DNA of 64,000 nucleotides from a virus. The position numbers were made by a program, and so were the translations under genes. The stretch's first letter is position 1, and every line of letters begins with the position of its first letter. Below, in pieces: positions 24,241-50,080 of the stretch. The notes below the pieces were generated by a model. It was given only the letters and a program-made list of their open reading frames with translations. It was not told where the DNA came from and did not search any database. The stretch spans positions 1-64,000 of IMG/VR virus record IMGVR_UViG_3300020190_000054; one strand, 5' to 3'.

Positions 24241-24272
24241 TTATTTTTCCTTTGTTGTGTTTATGTTATTTA

Positions 24273-25434
24273 TCAGACGCTACCGTCATCAGACACAAAG
24301 CTGTAGGCGGTGGTCACGAAGTCCTTGTTCAGGATCTCGAAGCCAGCGTACAGTTGCCAGATGAGGATGATGAAACGGCTGAAGTCGTCGTTGTTGTTGA
24401 TCAGCACCTGAGCGTTCGGACCGCCGATACCAACGCCAATGGCTTGAGGACCGAAGAAGAAACCTTGGGCAACTTCTTGGTTGGCATAAGGGGCAGCGCC
24501 GGTGAAAGAAGCCGAAACGTTCTTGGTCGGGAAGTTGGTCGACTCGAAGAACTTAACGCCTTCAAACTGAACACCAGTCGGCATGACGGGTTCACCAGCC
24601 AGGAAATAAGCCTGACCAGCTTGGGGACCCATGTAGAAGCTGGCGTTGTTAGGCATCATGGGGTTGCCCATGTACATGCCTTGGCCAGGATTGCCAGCGT
24701 AACGAGCAATTTCACGGAAGTCGGGATCACGACGCAGGTGCATCATGAAGGTGGGATCGCAGATGCAACGATACAGACCATCAGCGAAGGTAGGAACGTT
24801 ACGCTTGCGCAGATCCTTGACAACAGTCAGAAGGTCGGTACGCACCGAGAACTGCTGCACATCAGCGGTGTACTCAGCGGAGCTGTAAGTAACTTGGCTG
24901 GAAGAGTTCTTGGCTTTGTTACCAGGGAAGTAGTAACCACCTTGGGTGCTGGAAGCTTGACCATTGGCATCAGCTTTGGCCAGTTCGTCAATGAAGACGC
25001 GGTCACGCCAACGGCGATAGTCATCAAGCAGCGTCAGGCTACCGATCGACTGGTGGAACATATTCAGGTTGCCGGTGTCCAGCAGCAGACGCTGGGCGGT
25101 AACCAGGGTTTCACGAGCAATCTTGAAGGTGCTGGGCTGGGTCGGATCGCCCGGATCAGCAGGGCCGGTGTACTCTTTCAGCACAACAAGCACCTTCTCT
25201 TTGGTGATGTTGCGGCTGTTAGCGGTACCGATGGTTTGGTCAGCCACGCGCTCACGGCTGTCCTTGGTACCAGGAGTACCCCAGAACTTATAGCGGTCGA
25301 GCTGAACGGTTTGACCAGGCTGACGAGTGAAGTCGTGAACAACCACGGGCTCCACAGCCATCTCGGCAATATATGCAGGGTGCGGACGATAGAGTTCCGC
25401 GCCTAAAATCTTTGGAAAATCGTTCTCCTGGTCC
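24273..25434 (-). CDS. Major capsid protein, 3' exon
   Basis: The frame from the Met at 25361 gives 362 aa, but the same frame is open and protein-like up to 25442 (QENDFPKILGAELYRPHPAY precedes IAEMAVEP), so the start is elsewhere and the gene is split. The body (VLVVLKEYTGPADPGDPTQP, RRWRDRVFIDELAKAD, DPTFMMHLRRDPDF, EVAQGFFFGPQAIGVGIGG) fits HK97-fold, N4 gp56-type major capsid proteins. Location after portal and scaffold-like genes supports this. Immediately upstream lies a group I intron core; the exact 3' splice site (about 25434/25435) is inferred. Highly biased codons support strong expression. Confidence 0.8.
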
Positions 25435-26252
25435 CTAATTTCTTAGAGGGGTGGACTATCTCTTCATCCCTGTGGGATGCCGGACGCTAAATCTGGTATT
25501 ACGTAACAAGATCGTGTTACCCCCAGTAGTCTCTGCACCTTCCAATCACGGGCTTGATTGGCTTGGCTCAGGATTACCCTCGTCTTTACGTTAGGGCTTC
25601 CCTGAATTCATCCGGTTTGCACTCATCAATTACTCGATGAGGTGACAACGTTGAGCGTTCAGTTGAGGTATGATTTGGAAACCTGTTCATAAACAACATG
25701 GATCCAAAATTAGTTCCTGGATTTGGTAACCTTTACTTAACAGAAAGAGGAGAAGCTTTTGAAAAACAACTTGATGAAAACAACCAAGAATATTTTCAAA
25801 AAATTGCAATTAGCTCAACCAGTACTTATGACCGTATTTCTGTTCTTGTAAATGGAAGAAGAAAGAGGTTTCATCTTCACGTCTTGATGGCTATTGCTTT
25901 TTTAGGGTTAGATCTTCGTTCACATGGAACAAATAATTTTTCCCTTCAAGTAGATCACAAGGACAACAACAAAAGAAATAACTGCGTCGATAACCTTGAA
26001 ATCGTAACCAAACAAGAAAATCTTACAAGAGCTTGGGAAACCGGTTGTTACAAGAACAATGGTTTTGCTAGTAAAGGCAGACCGAAAAAAACTTTAAGAA
26101 AATTTTCTTCGGAAGACGTGAAGCAAATTAAAACTTTAAAAGAAGCAGGACTTTCTTATCGAAAGATTGCGGAAAAGTTTAACTGCAATCACGGTGCTAT
26201 TTACCAAATCCTAAAAGGAAATACCTACCAGGATCTGAACTAGCTATCAATA
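25435..26252 (-). other. Group I intron interrupting the capsid gene
   Basis: Minus-strand conserved core elements are seen: a hairpin CTCATC/GATGAG (P2-like), AATTCAGGGAAGCCCTAA, AATCCTGAGCCAAGCC (25560-25575), GGTGCAGAGACTA (25527-25539) and AAGAGATAGTCC (25453-25464, the P7 partner). These are the P4/Q-R/P7 consensus of group I introns, as in phage introns. The 3' end is near 25435 and is followed by capsid-coding sequence. The 5' end is less certain: GTCACCTC (25639-25646) could be the internal guide and pairs with AGGTG at 26255-26259, giving a U-G closing pair at 26253. An antisense HNH gene fills the 5' part. Confidence 0.75.
25698..26243 (+). CDS. HNH homing endonuclease, antisense to the capsid gene
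   Basis: 181 aa. The N-terminal NUMOD4-like region (GFGNLYLTERGEAFEKQ) is followed by RFHLHVLMAIAFLG, the HNH_3 core LQVDHKDNNKRNNCVDNLEI (DH at 86-87) and a C-terminal HTH (FSSEDVKQIKTLKEAGLSYR, KIAEKFNCNHGAIYQIL) like intron-encoded nuclease repeats. It is A/T-richer than the neighbouring capsid DNA. The gene runs opposite to the intron that seems to house it; its own promoter may be TATGAT near 25669. Confidence 0.85.
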   Translation: MDPKLVPGFGNLYLTERGEAFEKQLDENNQEYFQKIAISSTSTYDRISVLVNGRRKRFHLHVLMAIAFLGLDLRSHGTNNFSLQVDHKDNNKRNNCVDNLEIVTKQENLTRAWETGCYKNNGFASKGRPKKTLRKFSSEDVKQIKTLKEAGLSYRKIAEKFNCNHGAIYQILKGNTYQDLN

Positions 26253-26272
26253 AACACCTTGGTTTATCCTCC
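26253..26272 (-). promoter_or_regulatory. Candidate start region of the capsid gene (RBS and 5' mini-exon)
   Basis: On the minus strand GGAGGA (26267-26272), 9 nt, then GTG at 26257. That frame reads only five codons to a stop, so if used it must be joined by splicing to the 3' exon. A splice after 26253 and before 25434 would give M-L-D-QENDFPKILG. This is inference; the alternative is a start between the HNH gene and the intron core. Confidence 0.35.
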
Positions 26273-26352
26273 AGTGTTAATTTTGTTATCGGGTGAGAAG
26301 ACTTGGCTTTTGCCTCATCTACTACAAATTGTAGCAGTCAGTAATTTATTTA

Positions 26353-26892
26353 TTACGTGTACTGCATGGTAGGTGCTTTATAACGAGCACCCATCGAATT
26401 ACTGGAGCCATAAGACTCCGGATCAACTACAGCTTGCTGGAATCCAGGGAGACCCATGGCACCAGGAATAGCGCCAAGGGCTACACCGCCAAGACCGGCA
26501 GCAGCAGCAGAAGCAGGAACTAAACCAAGAGCCACGTTCCTACCTAGCACACGCGTAGTTGCCGCAGTTGCTTCAGGAATAGAACCTGCGCCACCTGCTA
26601 CATCAGCTAGCTCCAACAGAGCTTTCTGACGTAAACCGCCTTCACGCATCTTTGTTGCTTGTTCAAAAAGGAAGTCCTGTTGTTCTTGGCCCAAATTTTG
26701 GATACCTTTTACCATTTGAGGAGCGTACTTCCCGGCTAGAGCACGTGCCCCAAGTAAACCAGCTGCACCACCAAGACCACCGGCCGCAGCAGCAAGTGCC
26801 GCAGAACCGGGATCCTCTCCTTGAGAAAGGGCGTACCCACCCGTGGCTAAGCCAGCAGCAATAGGTACGCCATAAGCTAAGCGCTTACGCAT
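26353..26892 (-). CDS. Ala/Gly-rich hydrophobic virion protein
   Basis: 179 aa. Three Gly/Ala-rich hydrophobic stretches (about 8-25, 30-52, 118-145; e.g. AAGLGGVALGAIPGAMGLPG) surround a helical middle (EQQDFLFEQATKMREGG). It resembles other Gly/Ala-rich virion proteins in the 35-42 kb block. Lying between scaffold and capsid genes, it may be an internal head protein. No family was recognised. Confidence 0.55.
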   Translation of the reverse strand: MRKRLAYGVPIAAGLATGGYALSQGEDPGSAALAAAAGGLGGAAGLLGARALAGKYAPQMVKGIQNLGQEQQDFLFEQATKMREGGLRQKALLELADVAGGAGSIPEATAATTRVLGRNVALGLVPASAAAAGLGGVALGAIPGAMGLPGFQQAVVDPESYGSSNSMGARYKAPTMQYT

Positions 26893-49798: not shown

Positions 49799-50014
49799 AT
49801 GGAATACACTGACGATCAACTCCTTGCCATGGCACTTGGCAATATCGGTGATTTCATCCATGACAATTCACCACACTATGTGTTGATCGAAGAAGATTTT
49901 CGCAACGATGAGGACTACGACACTTGGGATTATGGCACTGAGCCATTGCCCCAAGATCACACTTGGCGTCATACATCTATTGATGTTTGTGTAAGTCCAA
50001 GTGCGCCTGAGTAG
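49799..50014 (+). CDS. Acidic early protein overlapping the tRNA
   Basis: 71 aa, MEYTDDQLLAMALGNIGDFI then EEDFRNDEDYDTWDYGTEPL. Very acidic. Its last codons and TAG stop lie inside the 5' acceptor/D region of tRNA-Leu (overlap 50005-50014). Translation and tRNA maturation would compete on one transcript. Confidence 0.5.
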   Translation: MEYTDDQLLAMALGNIGDFIHDNSPHYVLIEEDFRNDEDYDTWDYGTEPLPQDHTWRHTSIDVCVSPSAPE

Positions 50015-50080
50015 CCCAGCGGAAGAGGCAAACGACTTAAAATCGTTCCAGCGTGGGTTCGAATCCCACCTCAGGTACCA
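50005..50080 (+). tRNA. tRNA-Leu (anticodon UAA), class I-like with short variable arm
   Basis: A full cloverleaf can be drawn. Acceptor GCCTGAG/CTCAGGT (one G-U at the end), D-stem GCC/GGC with GG in the loop, anticodon stem AACGA/TCGTT with loop CTTAAAA (anticodon TAA at 50038-50040), variable region only CCAGC, T-arm GTGGG-TTCGAAT-CCCAC, discriminator A and encoded CCA. UAA reads UUA (Leu). Bacterial tRNA-Leu normally has a long variable arm, which is missing here; A73 and the D-loop GG are retained. Confidence 0.9.

Follow-up and report, generated by a model that had tools for sequence, protein, structure and literature searches.

A probably mobile group I intron in the major capsid gene of an S-EIV1-related phage, with an antisense HNH gene in its P1 loop

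The homing gene of a phage intron usually lies in the sense direction; a single message then serves both intron and nuclease, and with it comes a shared timing problem. The T4 gene segD is free-standing. It has been described as antisense (PMC2988022), and a cyanophage antisense RNA (CfrI) located between psbA and a homing endonuclease gene is retold in the available text of a review (PMC12197685). Introns with antisense homing genes have been described in the nuclear rDNA of myxomycetes (PMC9548176, PMC3679873, PMC3073962), and the accessible part of one of these sources lists P1 among the positions of homing endonuclease genes, without a tie to the antisense ones (PMC3679873). In the literature searched, including the accessible text of a review of bacterial and phage introns (PMC3984707), we found no phage intron with an antisense homing gene; the terms 'antisense', 'opposite strand' and 'orientation' did not occur in that text, according to which every phage intron seen up to then (2014) lay in a protein-coding gene. 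Among cyanophages, an HNH endonuclease, I-PfoP3I, has been reported from a group I intron in the DNA polymerase gene of Pf-WMP3 (PMC3428280).

In the present study, we analysed a stretch of 64,000 nucleotides (the window), which is part of a 64,632-base viral record. Our comparison indicated that its capsid locus very probably contains a mobile type A group I intron, self-splicing and homing, in the major capsid gene of an S-EIV1-related phage, with an antisense HNH gene in the P1 loop. Relatives were gathered by two IMG/VR capsid searches (the best 80 of at least 600 matches in each), one IMG/VR HNH search (the best 80 of 115 matches) and one core-sequence search, and the window and S-EIV1 were added. 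Among the matches listed, there were at least 319 capsid-start places, counted with the window, S-EIV1 and contigs that occurred more than once: intron and HNH gene were both present in 175, 14 had an intron lacking the HNH gene, in 25 the contig ended within the intron, and 105 were intronless. Fifteen loci without a recognisable capsid place lay outside this count. The pattern used did not find one intron end in 29 places, two of which (L161 and L163) still entered the set of 71 unique complete introns; these comprised, among the matches listed, 64 with the HNH gene and seven that had no HNH gene and kept the ribozyme. Unique (non-repeat) sets underlie the counts on the 71 introns and their 64 HNH genes, the tree rows, the flanks and the site comparison given below.

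The capsid frame matched phrog_1357, a major head protein family (E 2.6e-17), and a Pfam search of the frame gave no match. The only capsid match among 50,697 phage records was Synechococcus phage S-EIV1 (KJ410740), whose protein was 85.2% identical but whose gene had no intron, exon 1 being joined directly. In the window, a Shine-Dalgarno-like GGAGGA (26267..26272, minus strand), found as GGAG[GA]AT...RTG in intron-bearing and intronless relatives, preceded exon 1, GTG TTT ATT GAT (M-F-I-D; 26246..26257, minus strand, GTG at 26257). Exon 2 (24273..25424, minus strand) began with AAC GAT TTT CCA and continued to the capsid stop. The 105 intronless places, duplicates included, carried RTG TTY NTN GAY followed directly by an N or T codon and D-F-P-K, encoding M-F-[IL]-D-[NT]-D-F-P. 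An earlier reading of the DNA, made from the letters alone (hereafter the sequence-only reading), had proposed a first exon of only a few codons behind GGAGGA-N9-GTG, and the intronless relatives bore this out with four codons (12 nt). The N-terminus proposed with it, M-L-D-Q-E-N-D-F, did not hold, as the empty sites fix another junction; the spliced capsid would have 387 residues and begin M-F-I-D-N-D-F-P-K.

Because the 12 nt of exon 1 run into AGCTAG while AAC GAT TTT CCA resumes at 25424 after CCAGGAG, the intron was assigned to 26245-25425 on the minus strand. The uninterrupted site of the intronless relatives fixes the junction, with an exon U at the 5' splice site and an intron G at the 3' end. 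The length derived from the empty sites was 821 nt, which corrects the earlier figure of 818 nt. The capsid frame was open to 25442, as had been noted before, and the part from 25442 to 25425 turned out to be intron. These assignments would correct the N-terminus and gene model of the capsid for the S-EIV1 lineage of freshwater cyanophages, in which the first exon is easily overlooked. In the S-EIV1 record (L002, KJ410740.1 60784-62010), the capsid is not given as one CDS; it is covered by a 'hypothetical protein' on the opposite strand and a short one on the plus strand, and the GTG start is missed. An opposite-strand open frame similar to that 'hypothetical protein' was also observed at 24252-25406 of the window.

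The sequence-only reading had placed a group I intron in the capsid gene and had suggested a covariance search. This search found the intron: RF00028 (Intron_gpI) matched 25675-25432 on the minus strand over 253 of 253 model positions with 94.2 bits (gathering score 50, E 5.6e-23), and it was the one group I intron that Rfam detected in the whole window, on the same strand as the capsid. Helices P2-P9 were counted on the 71 unique introns. Among these matches, P3, P4, P6, P7 and P8 were paired in all cells, P7.1 in 278 of 282 and P7.2 in 419 of 426, and two-sided pair changes were observed in P2, P6, P7, P7.2 (in five of its six pairs), P8 and P9. One of the six drawn P2 pairs was formed in 17/71 introns and one of the six drawn P9 pairs in 9/71; these two mostly unpaired positions are probably not part of their helices. 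Since the P7.1 and P7.2 hairpins lie between the P7 strand and P3', the intron was classified as type A (subgroup IA).

A chance resemblance was dismissed because 71 unique complete copies of the intron occupied one and the same position, and the exact empty site was present in at least 105 of the 319 capsid places. We also weighed a reading without a working intron, by which the HNH gene landed between the capsid gene and the gene upstream, with the group I sequence as a relic and an internal start for the capsid. A start at 25361 would agree with the first ATG of the open frame, but the complete core and its two-sided changes speak against a relic, as do the exact joining of the 12-nt exon at the predicted junction in intronless relatives and the conservation, in intronless capsids, of the residues between 25424 and 25361. 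The intronless relatives likewise argue against a start elsewhere within 25442-25361, which the sequence-only reading had kept as an alternative, and we consider the relic reading highly improbable. Even less credence was given to an arrangement in which the HNH gene stands beside the intron, on the side of the 5' exon, with the actual 5' splice site downstream of the gene, near 25690. The Rfam match does begin at 25675, past the HNH gene; against this, the exon GTG TTT ATT GAT required by the intronless relatives sits beyond the HNH gene, and the introns without the HNH gene share the 5' junction and have a short P1 loop where the gene would be.

The splice-site pairing of the intron was then read from its internal guide, CGUUGUCA (25650-25643, minus strand), in which CGTT faces AACG of exon 2 (P10) and GTCA faces TGAT of exon 1 (P1, with U.G at the splice site). 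The guide paired with both exon ends, U.G included, through eight pairs in 71/71 unique complete introns among the matches listed, and the 8-mer CGTTGTCA occurred exactly once in each of these introns. P1 (UGAU/GUCA) and P10 (CGUU/AACG, 284/284 cells) were both invariant; their pairs never vary and are therefore evidence of fit, not of covariation. The guide proposed by the sequence-only reading at 25646-25639 overlapped the one found here, and its supposed pairing with the GTG region was replaced by UGAU/GUCA. Another candidate P1, pairing TTGA with TCAA of GCTCAACG, was rejected: it leaves the splice site without a U.G pair, and both exons are matched by GUCA and CGUU.

The insertion site was compared between alleles. 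The sequence TGATAACG was present in 78/78 unique intron-bearing capsid alleles versus 38/75 intronless ones among the matches listed (Fisher p 8e-15, with kinship ignored). Four intronless alleles (L062, L065, L068 and L040) carried TGAC at the insertion site (GAC for GAT), and therefore the U.G pair would be lost there. In three of the four, the 27-nt 5' flank was otherwise identical to the commonest intron-bearing flank. The TGAC alleles are possibly former carriers or homing-resistant alleles.

The HNH gene (25698..26243, plus strand) encodes 181 aa and runs antisense to both the capsid and the ribozyme. Its product matched PF13392 HNH_3 (32.3 bits, cut-off 24.8, E 7.9e-8) and phrog_59 (E 3e-27), and its helix-turn-helix-like C-terminus matched HTH_38 just below the curated cut-off (E 5.3e-6). 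The product also matched PDB 1u3e (E 2.1e-5; with a profile, E 4.3e-6 over residues 43-120), which we take to be I-HmuI; the entry itself says 'HNH homing endonuclease', and the HNH domain shared with it is close by sequence only. The AlphaFold model of the HNH protein had a mean pLDDT of 54.9 and was good only at about residues 141-160, and it was set aside. Weaker HNH matches were present in 154 phage records, all less than 60% identical. As exon 1 lies beyond the HNH gene, its placement in the P1 loop on the opposite strand, proposed by the sequence-only reading, agreed with our results.

Among the matches listed, the HNH frame was uninterrupted in 64/64 unique introns (start ATG in 62 and GTG in 2; stop TAG in 64). 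H61, H87, N94, N95, N99 and N108 were kept in all 64, with H87, N95 and N99 falling within the stretch aligned to PDB 1u3e, and residue 86 of the HNH motif was D in 61 and N in 3. The median dN/dS was 0.108 over 2016 pairs, showing that the gene is under purifying selection. The other five frames of the same DNA contained 6 to 17 stops on average. One opposite-strand frame also had a low ratio (0.18, every tenth pair), yet it held 13 stops on average, and its low ratio was taken to reflect third positions facing each other. In the loci of the best 80 of 115 HNH matches, capsid exon 1 or the intron core lay opposite to the HNH strand in 80/80, and no HNH relative lacking both was found among them.

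A sigma-70-type scan of 25300-26500 gave no sigma-70-like promoter for the HNH gene, and no clear ribosome-binding site was seen by eye ahead of its ATG. A candidate promoter, TTGAGC-17-TATGCT, seen by eye in some relatives, was absent from other relatives and from the window, and was discarded. The plus-strand segment ahead of the HNH start (25672-25697; TTTGGAAAC..GTTTATRAACAAC in most relatives) was conserved though apparently non-coding by eye. Part of the conserved leader ahead of the ATG corresponded to the outer P1 stem.

At its 3' end, the HNH gene shares DNA with the ribozyme. On the minus strand, the last HNH codons, CTAGTTCAGATCCTGGTAGGTAT, held three paired stretches: the P1 extension, helix X (a name coined in this analysis, for which a role is what we infer) and the outer P1 stem. 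The P1 extension is formed by GTTCAG (26235..26240) and CTGAAC (25662-25657) and was paired in 426/426 cells of the 71 introns, with one G-C to A-U change in L156. The outer P1 stem, which closes the HNH loop, is formed by AGGTAT (26221..26226, HNH codons 176-175) and ATACCT (25671-25666). It was paired in 376/384 cells of the 64 HNH introns, with A-T replaced by G-C at the fifth pair in 9/64 rows, and its first five pairs were formed in 313/320 cells compared with 66 to 148 in registers shifted by -2 to +3. Helix X lies in an internal loop of the P1 stem and is formed by TCCTGGT (26227..26233) and ACCAGGA (25432-25426), the latter directly before the last intron G; all six strands are given on the minus strand. 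Helix X was paired in 492/497 cells, with a compensated G-C to A-U change in L161, and was absent from L163. The changes in L156 (AAC to AAT) and L161 (TAC to TAT) were both synonymous in the HNH gene, and none of the other 176 seven-codon windows had a synonymous diversity as low as that of the last seven HNH codons (0.013 vs a mean of 0.24).

Among the matches listed, TCCTGGTA was kept in six of the seven introns without the HNH gene while the adjoining loop differed; the seventh, L163 (257 nt), had a longer P1 extension and no X. Helix X and P1 form a pseudoknot, and because this lies beyond the fold program, the folds showed the P1 extension or X, not both. In minimum-energy single-strand folds of four HNH-less introns, the P1 extension was preferred in L227 and L163 and helix X in L007 and L203, and P1 itself had a low probability (0 to 0.37). 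The sequence CTAG (26240..26243) contains on the plus strand the HNH stop TAG (26241-26243) and on the minus strand an in-frame stop TAG of the unspliced capsid message (26242-26240). Among the matches listed, an in-frame stop at the second intron codon was observed in 64/64 HNH introns (63 CTAG, 1 CTAA) and in 4/7 introns without the HNH gene; the other three had CTGG, and the stop lay at codon 7 instead. Ribosomes initiating at the capsid GTG would be halted by a stop at the second intron codon before they could enter the ribozyme.

The distribution of the intron was examined on a tree of capsid exon 2, made by a quick search. Of 166 unique sequences given, L088 and L163 were left out, as were the first 150 nt of exon 2, and 976 of 2025 alignment columns were kept. 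Introns without the HNH gene and intronless alleles were interspersed on the tree, and the HNH intron proved to be optional and patchy at one site, with empty alleles. Over the 164 rows, intron presence required at least 33 changes, of which well-supported branches force at least 22, compared with an average of 54.5 for shuffled labels; recombination within capsid genes would raise such counts and may affect the tree. A mobile intron would be expected to give such a patchy pattern. Upstream of the site, the differentiation of intron-bearing from intronless alleles was 0.16-0.24 between alignment columns -296 and -116 and did not exceed 0.04 farther from the site. A second alignment gave 0.15-0.28 at columns -182 to -2, and the overall range was 0.09-0.28 for about 200-300 columns. 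Downstream, the first 30 nt of exon 2 showed 0.08 and the last 15 columns 0.36, and most of the later bins of the alignment, which was gappy, fell between -0.27 and 0.07. The differentiation was one-sided and modest; co-conversion is therefore at best one-sided, which fits these data weakly.

These observations also bear on the possibility that the intron splices but its HNH protein no longer drives homing, having become a regulator, or that the element spreads by ordinary phage recombination. This reading would accord with the negative promoter scan, the persistence of seven of the 71 unique introns (among the matches listed) without the HNH gene, the near-zero differentiation downstream and the N at residue 86 in 3/64. 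We nevertheless consider it unlikely, given the intact HNH frame in 64/64 with a dN/dS of about 0.11, the patchy presence of the intron, and the six motif residues kept throughout, three of them in the PDB 1u3e-aligned stretch. The mobile intron with a homing HNH nuclease is preferred; its anatomy, junctions, pairing, distribution and the purifying selection on its HNH gene are read directly from the compared sequences.

Splicing, cleavage, homing and the manner of HNH transcription are proposed as follows. The ribozyme would excise itself from the minus-strand message, joining M-F-I-D to N-D-F-P-K. In a mixed infection, the HNH protein would cut or nick an intronless capsid allele near TGAT^AACG, after which recombination would copy the intron into that allele. 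The last HNH codons and the stop double as outer P1 stem, helix X and P1 extension, and both strands take a stop codon from the palindrome CTAG.

The HNH gene lies on the plus strand and therefore needs a separate, opposite transcript. Large open reading frames of the window were mostly on the minus strand at 0.4-42 kb, save for a plus-strand cluster at 7.5-11.3 kb, and mostly on the plus strand at 43-64 kb, which is presumed to be an early module. Because most frames at 43-64 kb run plus, the HNH gene is on the strand of this presumed early module, and the strand may set the timing of HNH expression. The sole tRNA found in the window, tRNA-Leu (TAA), was at 50005-50080 on the plus strand. A more speculative proposal, which we put forward tentatively and think rather doubtful, is that the antisense layout is the regulation itself. 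The HNH mRNA, transcribed from the presumed early-module strand, would cover the P1 strand of the ribozyme and, if read past its stop, the capsid start codon and Shine-Dalgarno sequence, so that HNH transcription and capsid splicing or translation would be mutually exclusive in time. The codon overlap with the P1 stem and X would lock both genes together, and loss of the HNH gene would therefore need a deletion sparing those last codons. Closely related phages hold empty alleles, introns without the HNH gene and introns with it, so that direct tests of homing, loss and antisense control are possible.

Ribozymes related to that of the window were also found elsewhere. Terminase genes contained them in Vibrio phages and in two IMG/VR contigs, the psbA gene contained them in the Synechococcus phage S-CBWM1 (MG450654), and in Klebsiella phage phiKp_21 one lay between tRNA genes. 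Rfam gave two group I introns in one terminase large subunit gene (L181, 3484-4198) and three in another (L197, 567-2058); three more such genes (L335, L336 and L338) are annotated as three to four terminase fragments. In phiKp_21 (L337, 1501-1681), the related core was located between annotated tRNA-Ser and tRNA-Asn genes. The S-CBWM1 ribozyme was 70.7% identical over 46% of the query. That phage has two annotated introns in psbA, and the annotated homing endonuclease of intron 1 is sense, whereas the HNH gene of the window is antisense.

The Pf-WMP3 intron is likewise a cyanophage group I intron (there IA2) with an HNH endonuclease and with P7.1 and P7.2 (PMC3428280). As described in the accessible text, it differs in host gene (DNA polymerase versus capsid) and in the place of its endonuclease gene, which lies in P6a with its ribosome-binding site in stem P6b, whereas the gene of the window is antisense and in P1. 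In the Didymium introns Dir.S956-2 (I-DirII) and Dsq.L2066 (I-DsqI), the homing gene is antisense to the ribozyme, as in the window, but these introns reside in eukaryotic nuclear rDNA and their endonuclease genes have spliceosomal introns and polyadenylation; Dsq.L2066 encodes a His-Cys enzyme inserted in P9.2, unlike the HNH gene in P1 (PMC9548176, PMC3679873, PMC3073962, as far as their available text goes). In the available parts of the literature searched, a reversed nuclease gene such as the one in this phage intron was otherwise found described only in the nuclear rDNA of eukaryotic microbes. Placed in a late structural gene, the intron would solve the one-message timing problem of sense homing genes differently, with one stretch of DNA serving the ribozyme on one strand and the protein on the other.
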